From Hyphomonadaceae bacterium ML37 (GTDB taxonomy: Bacteria; Pseudomonadota; Alphaproteobacteria; Caulobacterales; Maricaulaceae), in NCBI GenBank assembly GCA_027627685.1, contig CP091241.1:1015149-1079148 (forward strand): 64,000 nt of DNA, read 5' to 3'. Positions 46,862-62,414 of this stretch are shown piece after piece (position 1 is the stretch's first letter; every line of letters starts with the position of its first letter). The position numbers and the translations under genes are program-made. The notes beneath the pieces were generated by a model. The model ran no database searches and was not told the origin of the DNA. It saw only the letters and a program-made list of their open reading frames with translations.

Positions 46862-49438
46862 TCAGATCACCGCCTCGCCCGCCGGGTCGCGCAGATTGTA
46901 GCGCGAGGCCATGACGGCACCGTAGGCGCCGGTTTCGGCGATCAGCATGACGTCGCCTTCATGGGTCTCGGGCAGCAGGCGGTCGGCGCCCAGAAGGTCA
47001 GCGCTTTCGCAGATCGGGCCGACGACCGACGCCATGCCGGCGCCGGGTTCGCCGAGCCTTGTAAGGTTCACGATCTCGTGGCGGGCGCCGTAGAGGGCGG
47101 GGCGGATCAACGAATTCATGCCCGTGCCCAGCCCGATAAACCGCGTCCCGAAGGCGTGCTTGACCTGGGTGACGCGCGCCAGCAGCACGCCGGCTTCGGC
47201 CACGGGATAGCGGCCGGGCTCCATCCACAGCTCAAAGCGCGGATGGGCTTTCTTCAGAAGCGCCAGCTCCTCGTCCACGCGCAGAAGATCAAGCGCGGGC
47301 GCGTCCGGGCTTTCGGGCACGCCCAGGCCCCCACCGCAATTTAGGATGCGGGCATCTGGAAAAGCCTGCGCTGCCTTGGCCAGGATCGCGCCGATTTCGC
47401 GCCAGTGGTCAGGGTCGGTGACGCCGGAGCCCGCATGGGCGTGCAGGCCGATCACCCGCGCCCCGGCGGCGTCGGCGGCGGCGCGCGCGTCGTTGAGGGC
47501 GTCCAGCGGAATGCCGAACTTGGCCTTGGGGCCGGCGGTCTTGACGTGCTGGTGGTGGCCGCGCGGCCGGTCGGGATTGACTCGCAGGATAATATCCGCG
47601 CCGCGGAACACGTCTGGCCAGTGGGTGAGCGGGTGCAGCCCGTCAATGGTCAGATGGGCGCCGAAGGCCACCGCCGCCTCATACTCGCTGCGATGGGCGA
47701 AATTGGGGGTGAACAGGATCTCGTCCGGGCGGATGTCGGCGAAGGTCTCGCGCACCCGCGCGATCTCTCCCGGCGAAACACACTCAAATCCCAGTCCGGC
47801 CGCCCGGATCGCGCGCAGCACGTCCGGGTGTGCATTGGCCTTCATGGCGTAGAAGGCGCGCGACAGCGTCCTGATCCCCGCCACGGCGCGGGCGCGGGCG
47901 CTGACGGTTTCGAGATCATAGACGTAGAGCCCGCCGGTTGGCGGCGCGACATCGAGCAGCGCGTCGCGCTTGCGGGTCCACCAGGGGGCCGGGCGCGCGG
48001 GCTGGGCCGGACCGGGCCGTGCGAGCTGCGCCCAGCTGGGGCCGAACACCGCGCCTTCGGGCGCCGTGCTGATCAGCTCCTCGTGCAGGCGCTTGGCCAA
48101 AGCGGCGCCCTCGGTCTCGTCGACCACCACGGTGAAATTGAGATCATTGGCGGCCTGGCTGACCAGCCGGATCGGCTTGTCCTGGAACATTTCCAGCGCC
48201 GGGGCGAGCTGGTGCAGAATGCGCCGGATGCCATAGCCCAGAAGGCTGACCGCAGCAGCGTCCTCGATGATCTTCACCCGGCACAGGGGCGCCAGCGTCT
48301 CGCGCAGTCGGTCAAGGCGCGCCTGATCGAGACCCGGATCGGGATCGAGGCTGACCGTGACATTGGTTTCAGAGGTGGAGACCAGATCCACCGACACGCC
48401 GCACGCCTTGAACCCGGCGAACACGTCGGCGAGGAAGCCGGCTTGGCGCCACATGCCGGCGCCCTCCATGACCACCAGGCGCACGCCGGTCTTGACCGAC
48501 ACGGCCTTCAGGCGCGGCGCGTCATCGCCGGGGGCGCCGGTGATGCGCGTGCCGGGAAGCTCGGGCCGCAGGGTGGAGCGCACCTCCATGGGAATATTCG
48601 CCCGGCGCGCGGGGCCAATGCAGCGCGGATGCAGCACCTTGCCGCCCATGGTGGCGATTTCCTGCGCCTCTTCATAGGACAGGGCGCGCAGATGCCGGGC
48701 GCCTTCGGTCAGGCGTGGATCGGCGCTGAACAGGCCGGGCACATCGGTCCAGATTTCGAGGCGCGCCGCCTGCAACCGTGCAGCAAAATACGCCGCTGAC
48801 GTATCCGACCCGCCCCGGCCCAGCAGCACGGTGGCGCCGCTGGCATGGCGCGCGATGAAGCCTTGAGTGAGGACCAGATCGGCGCCAGAAAGTGTCTCTT
48901 GCAGCGCCGGGTCGGCGTCCTCGCCCGCGCCATTGTCGAGCCAGGCGCGCGGCTCGTCGGCATTGTTGAGGGCGGTGAGGGCGTCGCGGGCATCCAGCAG
49001 CACCGGATCCAGCCCGGCGGCTTTCAGGCATTCCAGTCCCAGCACGCTGGCCATCAGCTCGCCCTGGGCCATCAGCTCGGCGCGCAGGCGGGCGCTGGCC
49101 TCGCCCGAATAGCCGATCCCGGCGGTGCGCCGGTCGATGAGATCGAAAATCTCCGCCAGCAGCGTATCCGCGTCGAGGCCCGCGGCGGCGGCGAACTCGC
49201 GATGGCGCGCCTTGACCGCTTCAGCCGCCGCCTCGCCGGCGCCCGCCAGCGCGGCGGCAGGCAGGGCTTCGAGCAGGTTGGACACGCCGGCCAGCGCCGA
49301 GTGGACGATCATGACCCGCTCGCCGGCCTCAAGCCGCGCACGGGCGATATCAGCGATCACGCGCCACCGTTCCGGAGTGGCCACGGAGGTGCCGCCGAAC
49401 TTCATCACGATCCAGGGACGGGCGGCAGATGCAGGCAT
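46862..49438 (-). CDS. lysA: Bifunctional aspartate kinase / diaminopimelate decarboxylase
   Basis: An 858-residue fusion of the first and last enzymes of lysine synthesis. The N-terminal aspartokinase (residues about 1-320) has MKFGGTSVATPERW, LGRGGSDTSAAYFAARL and WTDVPGLFSADPRL. Two ACT-like regulatory repeats follow (LVSTSETNVTVSLDPD and PIRLVSQAANDLNFTVVVDE). A linker with QPARPAPWWTRKRDALLD leads into the PLP-dependent decarboxylase with the cofactor Lys in FYAMKANAHPDVL, LNCGGGLGVPES and the C-terminal PICESADLLGADRLLP, with the active-site Cys. The same fusion is known in Xanthomonadaceae. It allows feedback by lysine within one polypeptide. Confidence 0.93.
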   Translation of the reverse strand: MPASAARPWIVMKFGGTSVATPERWRVIADIARARLEAGERVMIVHSALAGVSNLLEALPAAALAGAGEAAAEAVKARHREFAAAAGLDADTLLAEIFDLIDRRTAGIGYSGEASARLRAELMAQGELMASVLGLECLKAAGLDPVLLDARDALTALNNADEPRAWLDNGAGEDADPALQETLSGADLVLTQGFIARHASGATVLLGRGGSDTSAAYFAARLQAARLEIWTDVPGLFSADPRLTEGARHLRALSYEEAQEIATMGGKVLHPRCIGPARRANIPMEVRSTLRPELPGTRITGAPGDDAPRLKAVSVKTGVRLVVMEGAGMWRQAGFLADVFAGFKACGVSVDLVSTSETNVTVSLDPDPGLDQARLDRLRETLAPLCRVKIIEDAAAVSLLGYGIRRILHQLAPALEMFQDKPIRLVSQAANDLNFTVVVDETEGAALAKRLHEELISTAPEGAVFGPSWAQLARPGPAQPARPAPWWTRKRDALLDVAPPTGGLYVYDLETVSARARAVAGIRTLSRAFYAMKANAHPDVLRAIRAAGLGFECVSPGEIARVRETFADIRPDEILFTPNFAHRSEYEAAVAFGAHLTIDGLHPLTHWPDVFRGADIILRVNPDRPRGHHQHVKTAGPKAKFGIPLDALNDARAAADAAGARVIGLHAHAGSGVTDPDHWREIGAILAKAAQAFPDARILNCGGGLGVPESPDAPALDLLRVDEELALLKKAHPRFELWMEPGRYPVAEAGVLLARVTQVKHAFGTRFIGLGTGMNSLIRPALYGARHEIVNLTRLGEPGAGMASVVGPICESADLLGADRLLPETHEGDVMLIAETGAYGAVMASRYNLRDPAGEAVI

Positions 49439-49551
49439 GGCGACGATCCGGTTAGGTCTCACAGCGGGGCTGTGTGACATAGCGCGCCATGCTGCACTGC
49501 GCAAAGACGTTCAGCGAGGGGGTGCAGATCCCCGTCCCCCGCGCTGCGATA

Positions 49552-50751
49552 TCAGTAAAACGCCTGCAATCCGGTCTGAGCGCGGCCGAGGATGAGGGCG
49601 TGCACATCGTGCGTGCCCTCATAGGTGTTGACCGTCTCCAGATTCACCGCGTGACGCAGGATATGGTATTCCTCGGCGATGCCGTTGCCGCCATGGATGT
49701 CGCGCGCCTCGCGGGCGATGGCCAGCGCCTTGCCGCAGTTGTTACGCTTCATCATGGAGATGGCCTCGGGCACATAGGCGCCTTCGTCCAGCAACCGGCC
49801 CAGGCGCAGCGCGCCCTGATAGCCCAGTGCAATCTCGGTCTGCATGTCGGCCAGCTTCTTCTGCACCAGCTGGGTGCCGGCGATGGGCTTGCCGAACACG
49901 ACACGCTCCATGGCGTAGTCGCGCGCCGCGCGCCAGCAGAACTCCGCCGATCCCATCGCGCCCCAGGCGATGCCGTAGCGCGCCTTGTTGAGGCAGGAGA
50001 ACGGGCCGCGCAGACCCTTCACATTCGGCAGGAGGGCGTCTTCGGGCACCAGAGCGTCGCTCAACGAGATCGACCCGGTGACCGAGGCGCGCAGCGACAT
50101 CTTGCCCTCAATCTTCGGGGTCTCGAAACCCTTCACGCCGCGCTCCACCACGAAGCCGCGAATGACGCCGTCGAGCTTTGCCCACACCACCGCCAGATCG
50201 CTGATCGGCGAATTGGTGATCCACATTTTCGAGCCGTTGAGCAGGTAGCCGCCATCGACCTTTTTGGCCGTGGTGCGCATGGCGCCCGGATCCGATCCGC
50301 CATCCGGCTCGGTCAGGCCGAAACAGCCAACCCATTCGCCGGTGGCGAGCCTGGGCAGGTATTTGCGTTTCTGGGCTTCGGTGCCGAAGGCTTCAATCGG
50401 GTACATGACCAGAGAGGACTGCACGCTCATCGCCGAGCGATAGCCTGAATCCACCGCCTCGACCTCGCGCGCGATCAGGCCGTAGGCGACATGGGACAGG
50501 CCCGAGCCGCCATATTCTTCGGCCACCGTGGCGCCCAGCAGGCCCAGCGCGCCCATTTCGGTCATGATCTCGCGGTCGAAGCGCTCCTCGCGATAGGCGC
50601 TTATCACGCGCGGCATCAGCTTTTCGCGGCAATAGGCGCGCGCGCTGTGCGCGATCATGCGCTCTTCTTCGCTGAGCTGATGCTCCAGGTGGAGCGGGTC
50701 TTCCCACGAAAAGCTCAGCGGGGTGTTATCTGCAGCGTCCAGCGCGGCCAT
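49552..50751 (-). CDS. gcdH: Glutaryl-CoA dehydrogenase (acyl-CoA dehydrogenase family)
   Basis: Flavoenzyme that oxidises and decarboxylates glutaryl-CoA to crotonyl-CoA in lysine/tryptophan breakdown. The 399 residues have [18 protein letters not shown] (FAD/substrate), [17 protein letters not shown], and the catalytic Glu in [35 protein letters not shown] and [16 protein letters not shown] at the N-terminus are typical of GcdH rather than other acyl-CoA dehydrogenases. It lies upstream of the lysine-biosynthesis fusion gene on the same strand (113-base gap) and is divergent from the aconitase-like operon. Confidence 0.93.
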
Positions 50752-50890
50752 GGGTCGTCTCCTCATCGTGGCCTGCCGCGCGCGGGCTGGCGCAGCGTGC
50801 AGGCTCGGGTTCGAAATGTTATAAAGATATATCCTTTGATCGGAAACCGTTTGCGCGTGTAGTCTGGCAGTGTGGTACTGAGGCGGAGCT
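50752..50890. promoter_or_regulatory. Divergent promoter region of gcdH and the aconitase-like operon
   Basis: The 139 bases between two divergent starts contain an A+T-rich block at 50816-50840 (TGTTATAAAGATATATCC, with the eight-base palindrome GATATATC and a TTCGAA just before it). This is the likely site of back-to-back promoters and a regulator, but no box can be fixed to consensus. Confidence 0.4.
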
Positions 50891-52177
50891 ATGGCGGCAA
50901 CCCTTGTAGAGAAGATCATGGCGCGCGCAGCCGGGCGCGACACGGTGTCGCCGGGCGAGATCGTGACGATCGCGGTGGATCTGGCGATGGCCCATGATTC
51001 GTCCGGGCCCAGGCGCTGGCAGGCGCGGCTGGAGGCGCTGGGGACAGGTCTGTGGGACCCGAGCCGGGTGGTGATTGTGTCTGACCATTACGTGCCGGCC
51101 GTGGACGCCGAATCCGCCGCCATCCTGCAGGTGACCCGGCAGTTCGCGAGCGATTACGGCGTGAAGAATTTCTATGACATGAAGGGCATCTGCCATGTCA
51201 TCCTGCCCGAAAACGGGCATGTGAAACCGGGCATGGTGATCGCGGGCGGCGACAGCCACACCACGAATGCCGGCGCGTTCGGCGCCTATGCGGCCGGGTT
51301 CGGCGCCACAGACATGACCGCCATCGTGGCGACCGGCGAGACCTGGACCGTGGTGCCTGAAACGATCCGCGTGGAGATCGCCGGGGCCTTGAGCGCAGGC
51401 GTCACGGCCAAGGACATCATGCTGGCCCTGTGCCGCGATCTGGGCATGGGCAATCATTTCAAGGTCATCGAATACGCCGGCGCGTGCGTGGACGCGATGG
51501 ACATGGAAGCGCGCACCGTGCTGGCCAATATGGCCGCTGAGCTGGGCGGCGAGACCGGGCTGATCGCGCCGGACGAGACGACGCTGGCTCATATCCGCGC
51601 CCATGGCGGCGCGGTGGATGACGAGGCGATGCAGCGCTGGCGCTCCGACCCGGACGCGGCGTACGCGCAGGTGTTCGATCTGGACACCTCCGCACTGAGC
51701 CCTCAGGTGGCCGCGCCGCATTCGCCGGCCAATAGCGCGGACGTGGGCGTCCATGCCGGCACGCGGATTGATCAGGCGTATATCGGCGCCTGCGTGGGCG
51801 CGAAGCTGAGCGATCTGCATATGGCCGCCTCTGTCCTGAAGGGCCGGAAGATCGCCCCCGGCGTGCGCCTGCTGGTGGCGCCGGCCTCCTCCAAAGTCAC
51901 GGCGGCGGCGGCCAGAGACGGCACGCTGGAGGCGCTGGTGGAGGCGGGGGCTGTGGTGCTCGCCTCGGGCTGCGGCGCGTGTGCGGGACTGGGCGCCGGC
52001 CTGCTGGCGGCGGGGGAGGTGTGCATCTCCTCGACCAACCGGAATTTCAAGGGCCGGATGGGCCACAAGGATGCGTCGGTGTATCTGGGCTCACCCTATA
52101 CCGTGGCGGCCAGCGCGATCGAGGGCCGCATCGCCGATCCGCGCCCCTTCCTCAAGGACCGGAGGGCGGCGGCATGA
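50891..52177 (+). CDS. Aconitase-superfamily hydro-lyase, large subunit (LeuC/DmdA-like)
   Basis: Large [4Fe-4S] subunit of a two-part dehydratase of the isopropylmalate/homoaconitate/dimethylmalate type; 428 residues, the short form. Substrate and cluster blocks: [49 protein letters not shown]. Cluster Cys are Cys301 ([14 protein letters not shown]), Cys361 and Cys364 ([11 protein letters not shown]). The usual GSCTNGR of LeuC reads GACVGAK, so the Asn-Gly-Arg substrate contact is lost, which argues against ordinary isopropylmalate. The stop overlaps the small subunit start (ATGA). Downstream lyase suggests a dehydratase-plus-lyase pathway. Confidence 0.85.
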
Positions 52178-52713
52178 GCGTGCGCGAGGGCCGGGCCTGG
52201 GTCTATGGCGACGGGATCGACACCGATCTGCTGGCGCCCGGCCACGCCATGAAGAAAAGCCCGGCAGAGCTCGCCAAGCACACGCTTGAAGCCATCGACC
52301 CCCATTTTGCAGCGCACATCAAGCCCGGCGACATGCTGGTGGCCGGCGCGGACCTCGGCATCGGATCGAGCCGGGAGCAGGCGGCGATCTCGCTGAAAAC
52401 GCTGGGCGTTTCGGCGGTGATTGCGAAGATCTTTGCGCGCATATTCTACCGCAATTGCATCAATATCGGCCTGCCCGCGATTGTGTTCAATCCGGCCGGC
52501 CGCATCCATCCCGGCGACACGCTGCGCCTCGATCTGGCCGCCGGGCGCCTGTCCAACCTGGCCACGGGCGAGACCTGGCCGGTTCCCGCGCTGCCGCCCC
52601 ACCTCATGTCCATGATCGAGCAGGGCGGACTGATGGCGAGCCTGACGGCCCGCTTTGCTGACCCCGCCGCCCGCCACCCGATGCCGCCCCGGCCCCAGGG
52701 AGCCACCCAATGA
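52174..52713 (+). CDS. Aconitase-superfamily hydro-lyase, small subunit (LeuD/DmdB-like)
   Basis: A 179-residue swivel-domain subunit that completes the dehydratase encoded just upstream. GRAWVYGDGIDTDLLAPGHA is the family N-terminus, with the conserved Asp-x-Asp. VAGADLGIGSSREQAAISL contains the Gly-Ser-Ser-Arg-Glu substrate loop, and IFARIFYRNCINIGLPAI follows. It overlaps both neighbours by four bases (ATGA), so the three proteins should be made in balanced amounts. Confidence 0.88.
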   Translation: MSVREGRAWVYGDGIDTDLLAPGHAMKKSPAELAKHTLEAIDPHFAAHIKPGDMLVAGADLGIGSSREQAAISLKTLGVSAVIAKIFARIFYRNCINIGLPAIVFNPAGRIHPGDTLRLDLAAGRLSNLATGETWPVPALPPHLMSMIEQGGLMASLTARFADPAARHPMPPRPQGATQ

Positions 52714-53594
52714 CCGACCTCAAATCCCGCCTCAACAACGGACCCGCCGTCCTGGCGCCGGGCGTATATGATGCGCTGAGCGCGCTGCTGGTGGCCGAAG
52801 CCGGGTTCGAGGCGGCGTATCTGTCGGGCGCCTCCATCGCCTACACCCAGCTGGGGCGCCCCGATCTGGGCCTGGTCAGCGCCAAGGAGGTCGCCGACAC
52901 GATCGCGCGCATTCATGAGCGCACGGACATCCCCCTGATCGTCGACGCCGATACCGGCTTTGGCAATGCGCTCAACGTGATGCGGACGGTGAAAACCTTT
53001 GAGCGGGCGGGCGCCAGCGCTATTCAGCTGGAAGACCAGCAATTGCCCAAGCGCTGCGGGCATCTGGCCGGCAAGAGCCTGGTGAGCCTCTCCGAGATGG
53101 CCGGCAAGGTGCGCGCCGCGGTGGATGCGCGCGCCAGCGAGACCACCCTGATCATTGCGCGCACCGACGCCATCGCGGTGGAGGGCTTCAATGCCGCGCT
53201 GGACCGCGCCGAGGCGTATCTGGATGCGGGCGCCGACATCCTCTTCATCGAAGCGCCCCAGGACATGGCCCAGATGAACGCCGCCGCCGCCCGCTTCGCC
53301 GGCCGTGCGCCCCTGCTGGCCAATATGGTGGAGGGCGGGCGCACCCCGATGCGCACCCTCGATGACCTGTCGGGCGCCGGATACCGCCTCGTGATCACGC
53401 CCGGCGCCCTGGTGCGCGCCCTGGCTTTCATGGCCCGCGACTTCCTCAAAACCCTCAAAACCGACGGCGCCACAGCCCGGTACCGCGACCGCATGCTCGA
53501 TTTCGGCCAGCTCAACGCCCTGCTCGGCATTGACGAGATGAAGGCCGACGGCGAGCGCTATGATGCGGGCGAAGCGCCGAAAGCGGCGGAATGA
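52710..53594 (+). CDS. Isocitrate lyase / PEP mutase superfamily lyase
   Basis: A 294-residue member of the superfamily that cleaves C-C bonds of 2-hydroxy di- and tricarboxylates (methylisocitrate lyase, 2,3-dimethylmalate lyase, oxaloacetate decarboxylase). APGVYDALSALLVAEAGFEA, the Mg2+ site IVDADTGFGNALN (79-85) and the lyase signature LPKRCGHLAGK with catalytic Cys116 are present, so it is a true lyase and not a mutase. The C-terminus ends YRDRMLDFGQLNALLGIDEM. Co-translation with an aconitase-like pair resembles the dmdAB/dml set of nicotinate degraders. The exact substrate is not known. Confidence 0.87.
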   Translation: MTDLKSRLNNGPAVLAPGVYDALSALLVAEAGFEAAYLSGASIAYTQLGRPDLGLVSAKEVADTIARIHERTDIPLIVDADTGFGNALNVMRTVKTFERAGASAIQLEDQQLPKRCGHLAGKSLVSLSEMAGKVRAAVDARASETTLIIARTDAIAVEGFNAALDRAEAYLDAGADILFIEAPQDMAQMNAAAARFAGRAPLLANMVEGGRTPMRTLDDLSGAGYRLVITPGALVRALAFMARDFLKTLKTDGATARYRDRMLDFGQLNALLGIDEMKADGERYDAGEAPKAAE

Positions 53595-59177: not shown

Positions 59178-60824
59178 ATGAGCGACGAAGTGCGCAGCAG
59201 CGGCGGCGCCGAGCGCCAGACCGGCATTCTCGGCCTGATCGAGCGGGCCGGGAACCGGCTCCCCGACCCGGCTTTCATCTTCTTCTATCTGATCCTGTTC
59301 ATGGTGGTGATCTCCACCATCGCCTATTTCCTGGGCTGGTCGGTGGCCCATCCTACCTTGCGCGACGCCGACGGCGCCCCCCAGGCGGTCAACGCCATCA
59401 GCGCGCTGCACCCGGACTCCCTGCGCCATCTTCTGGTGGACATGCCGCGCATCTTCACCAGCTTCCACCCGCTGGGCTATGTGCTGGTGGTGATGCTGGG
59501 TGCAGGCGTGGCCGAGCGGGCGGGCCTGTTCGGCACGGCGATGCGCGCCGCGGTGCGCGACGTGCCGCGGCTGCTGCTTACCCCGGCGGTGGCGCTGGCG
59601 GCGATGATGGGCAATCTGGCCGCCGACGCGGCCTATGTGGTGCTAATCCCGCTGGCCGCTGTGATCTACGCAGCCGCCGGACGTCACCCCATCGCGGGCA
59701 TTACGGCCGCCTTTGCGGGCGTGTCGGGCGGGTTCTCGGCCAACCTTCTGCCCGGCCAGCTGGATGCGCTGCTGTTCGGCATCACCGAAGCCACGGTGGT
59801 GGCCCTCGATCCGGGCTGGACGATGAATATCGCGGGCAACTGGTATTTCATCGCGGCGATGACCTTCCTTTTCCTGCCGGTGATCTGGTTTGTCACCGAC
59901 CGCATCGTGGAGCCGCGCCTGGGCCAGTGGACCGGCGGCACGGTGGCGGGCGGCGCGCCCAGGACCGGCGATGAAGACCCTGAAGGCGAAACCACGCCGG
60001 CGCAGAAAAAGGGCCTCGCCCACGCCGGGCTCGCCGTGCTGGCGGTGTGCTTTGTCTGGCTGTTCCTGACGGTGGATCTGGTCAGCCTCATCACCTTGGG
60101 CGGGGTCTCGCTTTATGGCGGCAATGCGCCGCTCTATGCGGGCGATCCCGAGCTCAGCGTGGCGCAGAATCTGGTGCCCTTCTTCTCGTCCCTGGTGGCG
60201 GGCTTCATGATCCTGTTCATCTTCGCCGGCATCGCCTATGGCCGCGCGGCGGGCACGATCAAGGACCATCGCGACATCGTCGACATGATGGCCGGCGCCA
60301 TGAAGGACATGGGCTATTATCTCGTGCTGGCCTTCTTCGCGGCCTATTTCGTGGAGATGTTCAACCAGTCCCAGCTGGGCCTGATCTCGGCGGTGAACGG
60401 CGCCAACGCCATTCAGGCGTCCGGCCTGCCGCTGCCTATCGTGCTGGGCCTGATCGTGGTGTTTGCCGCCATCCTCAACCTGTTCGTCGGCTCGGCCAGC
60501 GCCAAGTGGGCGCTGATGGCGCCGGTGCTGGTGCCGATGCTGATGCTGCTCAATGTCAGTCCGGAAATGGCCACCGCGGCCTACCGCGTGGGCGACAGCG
60601 CCACCAATATCATCACGCCGCTGATGGTGTATTTCCCGCTGGTGCTGGTGTTCGCGCGCCGCTGGGTGCCGGAGTTCGGCATCGGGTCGCTGACCTCGGC
60701 GATGATCCCGTATTCGATCTGGCTTCTGATCGTGGGCATCGCGATGACGGTCGGGTGGGTATATCTGGGGCTGCCGCTGGGGCCGGGCGCGGATGTCGCC
60801 TATACCCTGCCGGCAGCCGGCTAG
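59178..60824 (+). CDS. AbgT family transporter, first of two tandem copies
   Basis: A 548-residue inner-membrane transporter of the p-aminobenzoyl-glutamate (AbgT/MtrF) family with about eleven helices and two re-entrant hairpins. Family blocks: GAGVAERAGLFGTAMRAAVR, GVSGGFSANLLPGQLDALLF, AGNWYFIAAMTF, VGSASAKWALMAPVLVPMLM and AAYRVGDSATNIITPLMVYF. AbgT proteins import p-aminobenzoyl-glutamate or export sulfonamides. The ATG at 59178 follows GGAGGGGGAG. Twelve bases separate it from the second copy. Confidence 0.94.
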   Translation: MSDEVRSSGGAERQTGILGLIERAGNRLPDPAFIFFYLILFMVVISTIAYFLGWSVAHPTLRDADGAPQAVNAISALHPDSLRHLLVDMPRIFTSFHPLGYVLVVMLGAGVAERAGLFGTAMRAAVRDVPRLLLTPAVALAAMMGNLAADAAYVVLIPLAAVIYAAAGRHPIAGITAAFAGVSGGFSANLLPGQLDALLFGITEATVVALDPGWTMNIAGNWYFIAAMTFLFLPVIWFVTDRIVEPRLGQWTGGTVAGGAPRTGDEDPEGETTPAQKKGLAHAGLAVLAVCFVWLFLTVDLVSLITLGGVSLYGGNAPLYAGDPELSVAQNLVPFFSSLVAGFMILFIFAGIAYGRAAGTIKDHRDIVDMMAGAMKDMGYYLVLAFFAAYFVEMFNQSQLGLISAVNGANAIQASGLPLPIVLGLIVVFAAILNLFVGSASAKWALMAPVLVPMLMLLNVSPEMATAAYRVGDSATNIITPLMVYFPLVLVFARRWVPEFGIGSLTSAMIPYSIWLLIVGIAMTVGWVYLGLPLGPGADVAYTLPAAG

Positions 60825-60836
60825 GAGGGCGCCGTC

Positions 60837-62414
60837 ATGGCCAGGACAGACGAGACAGGCGCACGCCGCGGCGGGTTTCTGGATGCGGTCGAGCGCTTCG
60901 GCGACCGGCTGCCCGATCCGGTCTTCATTTTCGTCTGGCTGATCGGCATCCTGATGGTGATGTCCGCGGTGGCGGCCTTCGCGCAGTTCACCGCGGTCAA
61001 TCCGATCACCGGCGAAACGCTGATGGCCCAGTCGCTGTTCTCGCGCGACAATGTCCAGCGCCTGCTGACCTCCATGCCCGACACGCTGACCAGCTTCACC
61101 CCGCTTGGGCTGACTCTGGTGATCATGCTGGGCGCGGGGGTGGCCGAGCGCTCCGGCCTGTTCTCCGCCGCGCTGCGCGCCGGGCTTCGCAACGCCCCCA
61201 AAGCCGCCATGACGCCCATCGTCATGCTGCTGGCGCTGGTGGCGACGCACTCGTCGGATGCGGCCTATGTAGTGCTGATCCCGCTGTCGGGCGTGATCTA
61301 TGCGTCCGTGGGCCGCCACCCCATCGCCGGGATCGCGGCGGCGTTTGCGGGCGTGTCGGGCGGGTTCTCGGCCAATTTCATGCCCGGACCCATCGATGCG
61401 CTGATCCTGGGCGTGACCGAGCCGGCGGTGCACATCATTGATCCGACCTGGACAGTGAATGTCGCGGGCAACTGGTATTTCATCCTGGGCATGGCGATCG
61501 TGTTTTTCCCCATCGGCTGGTTTGTCACCGACAGGATCATCGAGCCGCGCCTTGGGACATATGTCCCCACCGGCGATACGCCCCTGTCGAGCCAGAAGGG
61601 CGACAGCCAGCTGACGGCGCAGGAGCGCAAGGGGCTGTGGCTGGCGCTGATCGGCTTCCTCGGCGTGACGGGGCTGTGGCTCCTGCTCACCTTCGGGCCG
61701 GGCCAGTATCTGCAGATACCCGGCGCGCCCTGGGACCAGCGCCTGAACCCGATGCTGGACAGCCTGATCGCGTATTTCTTCCTGCTCTTCCTCATTTGCG
61801 GGGTATGCTTCGGCATTCCCACCGGCACGATCAAAAGCCATCGCGACGTGGTGCGCATGTCCACCGAGGCGATGAAGGACATGGCCGGCTATATCGTGCT
61901 GGCGTTTACCGCCGCACACTTCGTGGTGATGCTCAACTGGACGGGGCTGGGCGCGATCACGGCCATTCATGGCGCCGAGGCCGTGCAGTCGGCCGGCCTG
62001 CCCGCGCCGCTTCTGCTGGCGGTGATGGTGCTGCTGGCCGCCACGCTCAATCTGGTGGTGGGATCGGCCAGCGCCAAATGGGCCTTCATGGCGCCCTTCC
62101 TGGTGCCGATGCTGATGATCCTGGGGATCAGCCCGGAAATGACCACGGCGGCCTATCGCGTGGGCGACAGCGTGACCAATATCATCACGCCGCTGATGGT
62201 GTATTTCCCCATGGTGCTGGCCTTCTGCCGGCGCTGGAATCCCGAGTTCGGGATGGGCGGGCTCCTGTCGAACATGCTGCCCTATTCCTTCGCCTTCCTG
62301 ATCGGCGGGCTGGCGCTGACCATTTTCTGGGTCTGGGTCGGACTGCCCGTGGGGCCGGGCGCGCCCATCGGCTATGTCATGCCCGAAGGCGTGACGCCCG
62401 CGATTGGCGGCTAG
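60837..62414 (+). CDS. AbgT family transporter, second of two tandem copies
   Basis: A 525-residue paralogue of the preceding protein, with the same blocks (GAGVAERSGLFSAALRAGLR, GVSGGFSANFMPGPIDALIL, VGSASAKWAFMAPFLVPMLM, AAYRVGDSVTNIITPLMVYF). Differences cluster in the central loop and re-entrant region (PGPIDAL instead of PGQLDAL), which suggests different substrates. The stop is immediately followed by the ATG of the peptidase gene, so all are one operon. Confidence 0.94.
   Translation: MARTDETGARRGGFLDAVERFGDRLPDPVFIFVWLIGILMVMSAVAAFAQFTAVNPITGETLMAQSLFSRDNVQRLLTSMPDTLTSFTPLGLTLVIMLGAGVAERSGLFSAALRAGLRNAPKAAMTPIVMLLALVATHSSDAAYVVLIPLSGVIYASVGRHPIAGIAAAFAGVSGGFSANFMPGPIDALILGVTEPAVHIIDPTWTVNVAGNWYFILGMAIVFFPIGWFVTDRIIEPRLGTYVPTGDTPLSSQKGDSQLTAQERKGLWLALIGFLGVTGLWLLLTFGPGQYLQIPGAPWDQRLNPMLDSLIAYFFLLFLICGVCFGIPTGTIKSHRDVVRMSTEAMKDMAGYIVLAFTAAHFVVMLNWTGLGAITAIHGAEAVQSAGLPAPLLLAVMVLLAATLNLVVGSASAKWAFMAPFLVPMLMILGISPEMTTAAYRVGDSVTNIITPLMVYFPMVLAFCRRWNPEFGMGGLLSNMLPYSFAFLIGGLALTIFWVWVGLPVGPGAPIGYVMPEGVTPAIGG

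Follow-up and report, generated by a model that had tools for sequence, protein, structure and literature searches.

The closest described systems each share part of their logic with the locus considered here. In the nicotinate fermentation of Eubacterium barkeri, ring opening is followed by hydration of a dialkylmaleate by a two-subunit aconitase-family enzyme, DmdAB, and then by the lyase Dml. Homoaconitase (HacAB) and archaeal isopropylmalate isomerase are also two-part enzymes, and PrpB and the petal death protein cleave 2-methyl hydroxy-diacids to pyruvate and a carboxylate. On the ring-opening side, the use of creatinine via N-methylhydantoin pairs HyuAB with N-carbamoylsarcosine amidohydrolase, and NicF provides the same pairing of an opener with an isochorismatase-type enzyme. 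We analysed a 64,000-nucleotide stretch of the genome of Hyphomonadaceae bacterium ML37 (contig CP091241.1, positions 1,015,149 to 1,079,148; hereafter the window), which contains three adjacent genes on the plus strand at 50891–53594: a large hydro-lyase subunit (LSU), a small subunit (SSU) and a lyase (LYA). This trio probably performs the last two steps of cyclic-imide catabolism, and by analogy of logic alone it appears to work like dimethylmalate dehydratase plus lyase. This reading is supported by gene content and order, the mutual exclusivity of ring openers, co-occurrence, cassette displacement, a signature motif and a tree. Unlike DmdAB and Dml, the trio occurs in Proteobacteria, with other ring openers and with gcdH as a probable partner. 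Unlike the creatinine system and NicF, the openers are here associated with a hydro-lyase and a carbon–carbon lyase.

Both junctions within the trio are four-base ATGA overlaps. LSU (50891..52177, plus strand, 428 aa) matches PF00330 and the hacA_fam/PRK00402 models for the homoaconitase/archaeal isopropylmalate isomerase subfamily, and passes the hacA_fam subfamily cut-off (491 against 385.7). SSU (52174..52713, plus strand, 179 aa) belongs to PF00694 and the LeuD/DmdB family, whose subfamily cut-off it also passes (159.2 against 108.95). LYA (52710..53594, plus strand, 294 aa) is a member of the isocitrate lyase/phosphoenolpyruvate mutase superfamily, with matches to PF13714 (153.7 bits) and PF00463. 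These assignments come from family models and alignment, joined for LSU by the tree. All 18 aligned relatives keep the LSU cluster cysteines C301, C361 and C364, together with GDSH and most of TxRNFxGRMG; GSSRE of SSU is retained among 12 aligned relatives, and the KRCGH active-site motif of LYA (residues 114–118, 53049..53063) is invariant in 14 of 14. Because these residues are retained, all three genes read as working enzymes. LYA shares KRCGH and ARTDA with PrpB and the petal death protein; its ANMVEGG is near the ANMIEGG of the petal death protein, and PrpB has ANITEFG. The same genome yields no second LYA-like match at E<=1e-40. The order LSU–SSU–LYA recurs in Caulobacter, Nisaea, Stappia and Bordetella, and the trio is thus more than a chance arrangement, with LYA placed last in the operon in several Burkholderiales. 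An earlier sequence-only reading had described these ATGA-coupled genes at 50891–53594 as a two-part Fe-S hydro-lyase with three cluster cysteines and a KRCGH lyase of the isocitrate lyase/phosphoenolpyruvate mutase family, and that description holds throughout.

That reading also regarded isopropylmalate as an unlikely substrate, noting GACVGAK in place of GSCTNGR, and the wider comparison bears it out. The motif (LSU residues 299–305, 51785..51805, within IGACVGAK) holds the first cluster cysteine, C301. In aligned sequences, GAC[V/I/T]GAK is the signature of the LSU clade: it is found in 96 of 98 large subunits, the remaining two being without the motif in the chosen frame. In a 49-row tree, built by a quick method and with some distant rows on long branches, the 30 clade rows form a single group with SH-aLRT (Shimodaira–Hasegawa-like approximate likelihood ratio test) support of 99. 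The rows outside it are three LeuC-type sequences, the Methanocaldococcus jannaschii (M. jannaschii) LeuC and HacA, and 14 distant alphaproteobacterial relatives; 12 of these 14 are readable at the motif, all with GSC or GTC followed by other residues. The genome itself (3,038,461 bases in one contig) contains three aconitase-family loci in a PF00330 search: an AcnA-sized frame of 930 aa, one gene the size of leuC and the LSU of the trio. Its own LeuC has GSCTNAR, and a separate leu locus is read as leuB, leuD, leuC, leuA and ilvC (leuB and leuD by tblastn, leuA and ilvC from protein starts). LSU scores 237.9 bits against the leuC equivalog cut-off of 560.25. Some relatives do bear the name 3-isopropylmalate dehydratase in public records (among the 13 plasmid rows listed at 50% identity or more, two are annotated, both so), but a canonical or paralogous LeuCD retained for leucine biosynthesis is improbable to the point of being negligible. 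The contrary outcome, an LSU inside LeuCD in a genome with no other leuCD, was looked for; LSU lies outside LeuC and a separate leu locus exists. For the canonical form, the tree, the leuC cut-off and the separate leu locus together rule it out.

The gene-neighbourhood survey proposed in the sequence-only reading associates the trio with ring-opening enzymes. A scan of named genomes with LSU matched at least 597 stretches, of which at least 594 are relatives, not all necessarily clade members. The best 80 were analysed. They come from Caulobacter, Brevundimonas, Stenotrophomonas, Nisaea, Stappia, Acidovorax, Cupriavidus, Paraburkholderia, Bordetella and many metagenome bins; gene content was counted from tblastn in the 59 loci flanked by 5 kb or more on either side. 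A frequent order begins with a GntR/UTRA regulator and a Liv-type ABC transporter, continues with LSU, SSU and LYA, and ends with HyuB and HyuA, then an isochorismatase-type hydrolase and finally a flavoprotein resembling fumarate reductase. SSU is present in all 59 loci, LYA (at least 50% identity) in 45, the isochorismatase-type hydrolase in 36, the regulator in 33, the flavoprotein in 25, LivK in 23 and a TctC-type protein in 17. A ring opener is found in 42 of the 59: HyuAB (both subunits at least 50%) in 29, a PuuE-type enzyme in 10 and an AllB-type enzyme in three. At the thresholds used, no locus holds two kinds together. HyuAB, PuuE-type and AllB-type enzymes are unrelated families whose common chemistry is the hydrolysis of cyclic amides, imides or ureides. 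The nearest family names, all below cut-offs, are caprolactamase alpha for HyuA, allantoinase AllB (and also a dihydropyrimidinase model) for the single-gene opener, and flavocytochrome c followed by tricarballylate dehydrogenase for the flavoprotein.

Within the stretches examined, no ring opener lies near the trio in the window's genus. A PuuE-type query from a relative finds an 80% identical protein in the window's own genome at C1:2152615-2153508, about 1.08 Mb from the trio. Here an isochorismatase-type amidohydrolase (ICHb) and two PuuE-type amidohydrolases (PDA2 and PDA) occupy C1:2,150,871-2,154,212 on one strand. This second locus begins with a weakly matching DUF1838-like gene (27.3 bits) and a carbon–nitrogen hydrolase, followed by a CpeT-family gene (76.9 bits) and then ICHb, PDA2 and PDA. 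A short protein that matches no known family and a further carbon–nitrogen hydrolase complete it; some of these family names were tested on the copy from a genus member. The closest solved structure to PDA2 is a PuuE-type allantoinase, and allantoinase PuuE is also the nearest name for PDA (below cut-offs). Those closest to ICHb are N-carbamoylsarcosine amidohydrolase and 3ot4/3uao, the latter being the maleamate amidohydrolase NicF. Because HyuA-like matches, present in 37 of 61 relatives of the window's order, reach only 32–39% identity, the PuuE-type module seems to be the one in use in the window's group. The window by itself yielded no pathway, and the cyclic-imide reading came from other genomes and this second locus. 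Separately, genome G104 carries a divergent LSU (41%, GSCANGS) beside LYA (40%), ICHb, PDA2 and PDA (L262:2572-7713), by its sequence a sister lineage with the same logic and without the GAC motif.

Co-occurrence and DISPLACEMENT were followed in these 61 related genomes, among which the LSU clade is present in 14 (scored at 64% identity or more, with two genomes carrying 43% LeuC-like matches left out) and PDA2 in 21. PDA2 occurs in 14 of the 14 LSU genomes and in seven of the 47 others, an association with a Fisher value of 5e-9 that is overstated, since the 61 genomes share ancestry. A ring opener is therefore present in every LSU-bearing relative, compared with the 42 of 59 named loci obtained from neighbourhood alone. 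Within the window's genus, LSU and PDA2 agree in 15 of 15 genomes (nine with both, six with neither). At 63% identity or more, LYA is confined to LSU genomes, where it is found in 13 of 14, and every other relative has 46% or less; in the fourteenth LSU genome, G013, the LYA copy is cut by the contig end. The LSU clade is absent from seven PDA2 genomes (G015, G021, G048, G052, G053, G056 and G057), and these are exactly the ones with a 3-hydroxy-3-methylglutaryl-coenzyme A (HMG-CoA)-lyase-like protein (58–100% identity to the query; 42% or less in the others). Beside it lie the two subunits of another hydro-lyase, the large one LeuC-type and the small one LeuD-type, and a family III CoA-transferase (CaiB), which together with it form a replacement cassette; the family names were tested on G021 and partly on G015. 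This cassette adjoins PDA2 in three of the seven genomes and lies ~35–50 kb away in four. None of the 21 PDA2 genomes (14 + 7) has both cassettes, and the 40 PDA2-negative genomes have neither. Both cassettes contain a hydro-lyase and a carbon–carbon lyase, and the lyase of the replacement cassette would be expected to cleave a CoA thioester. Seven genera (g1, g2, g20, g22, g23, g25 and g27) hold both states, and in each the cassette tracks PDA2; one contrasting genome within them, G033, is 73% complete.

Two further features were seen in these genomes. First, G028 holds a second copy of the LSU-SSU-LYA/PDA cluster with broken frames near a contig start (L062, G028:C1:3000-21000), the other copy lying near the end of the same contig. 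Second, a further conserved branch is found near the ring openers of G021, G052, G015, G048 and G011 (L232-L243). It includes a second PuuE-like protein (28–29%), a short-chain dehydrogenase/reductase, an acyl-CoA dehydrogenase, CoA-transferases, a MaoC/mesaconyl-CoA-hydratase-like protein and a CitE/HpcH-like protein, in some cases with two MmgE/PrpD proteins, and possibly serves another maleimide.

The displacement data bear on two alternatives. One is a homoisocitrate- or methylisocitrate-type route with no imide, in which a homoaconitate or methylaconitate of central metabolism is hydrated and cleaved. Its appeal lies in the solved structures: HacAB and archaeal isopropylmalate isomerase provide the closest solved relatives of LSU and SSU, the top LSU score belongs to M. 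jannaschii homoaconitase (376 bits, against 363 for isopropylmalate isomerase), and the top LYA score belongs to PrpB. However, the HacA, HacB and PrpB equivalog cut-offs are all missed (LSU 450.9 against 550, SSU 152.1 against 230 and LYA 292.9 against 354.4 bits), the genes linked to the trio encode ring-opening enzymes, amidohydrolases and uptake systems, and presence in the relatives tracks the ring opener. The trio thus differs from HacAB and the isomerase in falling below equivalog cut-offs and in its degradative context, and this route is very improbable. The other alternative is catabolism of a hydantoin, lactam or ureide, with the openers acting on hydantoin-type compounds and the trio treating an acid that arises later. 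The nearest names of the openers (caprolactamase for HyuAB, allantoinase or dihydropyrimidinase for the single-gene opener, PuuE for PDA) and of ICHb (N-carbamoylsarcosine amidohydrolase) would suit it. Hydrolysis of ureides, by established chemistry, yields amino acids, which need neither a hydro-lyase nor a carbon–carbon lyase, and both swapped cassettes suit a hydratable unsaturated diacid; we regard this explanation as improbable.

The small subunit offers a clue to the substrate. Published work reports that substrate preference in this enzyme family is set by five residues of the small subunit (PMC7308503). In SSU the region is HAMKK (residues 24–28, 52243..52257, by alignment). The loop of the window, G-H-A-M-K-K, compares with Y-L-R-T-T in methanogen homoaconitase and Y-L-V-Y-T in isopropylmalate isomerase; in our reading of the alignment, which has a one-residue gap nearby, Lys27 aligns with the homoaconitase Arg and the isomerase Val. 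M26 and K27 are invariant in 12 of 12 aligned SSUs, and M-K is found in 34 of the 41 clade SSUs of relatives (three have L-K and four are unread). Relative to HacAB and the isomerase, the trio has an x-x-M-K loop for Y-L-R-T-T as well as GAC[V/I/T]GAK for GSCTNGR. The LeuD-type subunits that replace SSU read S-R-E-M-K in seven of seven cases. The ordinary LeuDs of the same relatives (29 of 30 read) have A-R-F-L-T in 26, A-R-Y-L-T in two and A-K-F-L-S in one, and none has M-K. Because a loop ending in M-K is common to both swapped lineages in the same genomic role, the comparison argues for action of the clade SSU and the replacing subunit on the same substrate, which plausibly carries an extra carboxylate.

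In the proposed pathway, a cyclic imide would be converted through a half-amide, an alkyl-maleate and an alkyl-malate to a 2-oxo acid and a carboxylate; the activities of the trio and opener enzymes, and with them every reaction, its stereochemistry, products and substrate, are predicted from sequence. The isochorismatase-type and PuuE-type enzymes, or elsewhere HyuAB or AllB-type enzymes, would open the ring of an alkylated maleimide and release its nitrogen to give the alkyl-maleate. LSU and SSU would then hydrate the double bond with a [4Fe-4S] cluster, and LYA would split the resulting alkyl-malate as methylisocitrate lyase and dimethylmalate lyase do. The sequence-only reading had named dimethylmalate dehydratase plus lyase as the nearest known logic; the resemblance stands, with the amendment that the trio represents the last steps only and that a ring-opening system lies elsewhere.

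A specific substrate is suggested by gcdH, the neighbouring glutaryl-CoA dehydrogenase gene (49552..50766, minus strand, start codon not settled). It is divergent from LSU across a short intergenic stretch (50767..50890) whose position would suit a shared control region. The identity given to this neighbour earlier is supported by family models and by the closest named solved relatives: two matches in the PDB carry the name glutaryl-CoA dehydrogenase, at 588 bits (presumably Burkholderia 3gnc/3eom) and 536 bits (presumably human 1siq), and the highest row, 4w9u (592 bits), bears no more specific name than acyl-CoA dehydrogenase. Counted at 60% identity or more, gcdH is found in nine of the 80 named loci (L091, L095, L096, L098, L099, L100, L110, L157 and L159), and in 13 of the 42 loci of another set that includes the window. 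It is mostly divergent from LSU; in L159 it lies downstream of the flavoprotein, and in L157 upstream together with a CoA-transferase (CaiB) whose top-scoring family is succinate-glutarate CoA-transferase (472.4 bits against a cut-off of 750). The gene is probably a pathway partner of the trio. Hematinic acid is the maleimide that bears a methyl group and a propionate side chain. By our own derivation, once its ring is opened and its nitrogen removed, addition of water at the carbon bearing the methyl group and subsequent cleavage would take it through 2-(2-carboxyethyl)-3-methylmaleate and 2-methylhomoisocitrate to pyruvate and glutarate, and the glutarate would exit through glutaryl-CoA and GcdH. 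Such a route would explain the gcdH linkage, and the diacid, a methyl-homoaconitate, would suit a hydro-lyase resembling homoaconitase and a lyase resembling methylisocitrate lyase. The sequence-only reading had suggested an uncharacterised pathway for a branched C4-C6 acid. A branched acid remains the expectation and the open-access literature searched gave no published name for the pathway, but the size probably does not hold, a larger alkyl-maleate being more likely (a C8 tricarboxylate if the substrate is hematinic acid).

The linkage to gcdH also weighs on a DmdAB/Dml-like alternative, in which dimethylmaleate or another small dialkylmaleate (citraconate, ethylmethylmaleate) would yield pyruvate with propionate, acetate or butyrate and the proximity of gcdH would be accidental. 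SSU falls in the LeuD/DmdB subfamily model and LSU in the same wider family, LYA matches the petal death protein and solved chains annotated as 2,3-dimethylmalate lyase, and ethyl- and vinyl-methylmaleimides are also pigment fragments. Against this, the gcdH linkage repeats across several lineages and positions, and Lys27 at the homoaconitase Arg position favours a substrate with a side-chain carboxylate. We consider this alternative unlikely, though worth keeping in view.

Several observations, besides the shared ancestry mentioned above, weigh against the cyclic-imide reading or narrow it. First, 17 of the 59 well-flanked loci have no ring opener in reach, including L091 (whose LSU is 91% identical to that of the window), four Cupriavidus, two Bordetella and two Stenotrophomonas loci, and LYA of at least 50% identity is absent from 14 of the 59. 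Second, gcdH is present in just two of 35 HyuAB-type loci, and only 40 of the 80 named loci read M-K, another 16 having a different loop (M-R in six, M-Q in two, the others each seen once) and 24 being unread. Third, the known substrates of the HyuAB, PuuE-type and isochorismatase families include hydantoins, lactams and ureides, and an imide is the best fit without being the sole one. Fourth, the clade members L131, L137 and L158 adjoin an Iso_dh-family dehydrogenase and a rhodanese, and L117 holds PuuE-type genes as well as a HyuB-like stretch. Finally, the Xanthomonadales loci L104, L109 and L112 do not fit, since a 282–306 aa protein follows SSU and replaces LYA. Given the loci without openers, the loci without LYA, the Iso_dh/rhodanese loci and the Xanthomonadales loci, the LSU clade may include enzymes for more than one alkyl-maleate.

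Some of these loci have additional features. The HyuB-like stretch of L117 (86% over a short part) lies between LYA and the PuuE-type genes (L117:12666-15577) and may be what is left of a swapped ring opener. In L131, L137 and L158, LSU and SSU are also linked to an acyl-CoA dehydrogenase and a CoA-transferase, with no close LYA (families tested on L131). The protein after SSU in L109, the one copy tested, has no Pfam match; by eye we would take it to be VOC-like. L127 and L149 have an MmgE/PrpD-family protein (Pfam, L149 copy) between SSU or LYA and HyuB, together with TctC-type binding proteins.

A possible source of the imide is suggested by CpeT/CpcT, a phycobilin lyase family. The CpeT family model matches 17 of the 61 relatives, and among 14 control genomes only Synechococcus. 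CpeT is found in 16 of the 21 PDA2-positive and one of the 40 PDA2-negative relatives; DUF1838 is found in 17 of the 21 and none of the 40, and in none of the 14 controls. In G015, G021, G048 and G052, CpeT copies lie 12–40 kb from PDA2 with the second CoA-type branch between or around them, and TonB receptors accompany this region in three of the four. The window's own genome has one CpeT copy beside ICHb-PDA2 and, by sequence search, a DUF1838–TonB receptor–CpeT triad about 108 kb past the end of the window (C1:1,187,357-1,192,085; L230:7358-12086). This second CpeT copy has no solved relative at E<=0.01. The triad, which is found also in G011 (L244), is a candidate bilin or heme uptake and handling unit. 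The 80 named loci gave no match to CpeT or to DUF1838 (a single query for each, tblastn E<=1e-8), a point against the pigment link, which therefore comes solely from the 61 relatives of the window's order; in other lineages the trio may be supplied from a different source, or these genes may lie elsewhere. There is a real chance that the trio belongs to an undescribed pathway for tetrapyrrole-derived imides. The full proposal, that the trio ends a bacterial route which obtains carbon and nitrogen from monopyrrole breakdown pieces of heme, chlorophyll or bilins via hematinic acid, with the pigment handled upstream by CpeT-like proteins, DUF1838 proteins and TonB receptors, is tentative and somewhat less likely to be right than wrong.

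Keyword searches of the open-access literature found no published cyclic-imide pathway of this kind, nor any work that joins isopropylmalate dehydratase to a phosphoenolpyruvate mutase or a hydantoinase to an isochorismatase and these lyases; among the open-access papers listed for hematinic acid in bacteria, none appeared to concern carbon catabolism. Published work names a dimethylmalate lyase among methylcitrate genes. The at least 594 LSU relatives are, where annotation was seen, called isopropylmalate dehydratase. If the cyclic-imide reading is true, it would provide a function for these relatives and for the linked HyuAB, PuuE-type and isochorismatase-type enzymes; if pigment is the source, the trio would supply a final mineralisation step for tetrapyrroles, which are abundant pigments in nature, and DUF1838 and non-cyanobacterial CpeT would gain a function.

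Two other regions of the window were noted. Next to gcdH, an 880-aa frame (46862-49504, minus strand) presumably encodes an aspartokinase–diaminopimelate decarboxylase fusion. Further downstream, two tandem frames of 548 and 525 aa (59178-62414, plus strand) encode what we take to be AbgT-type transporters.

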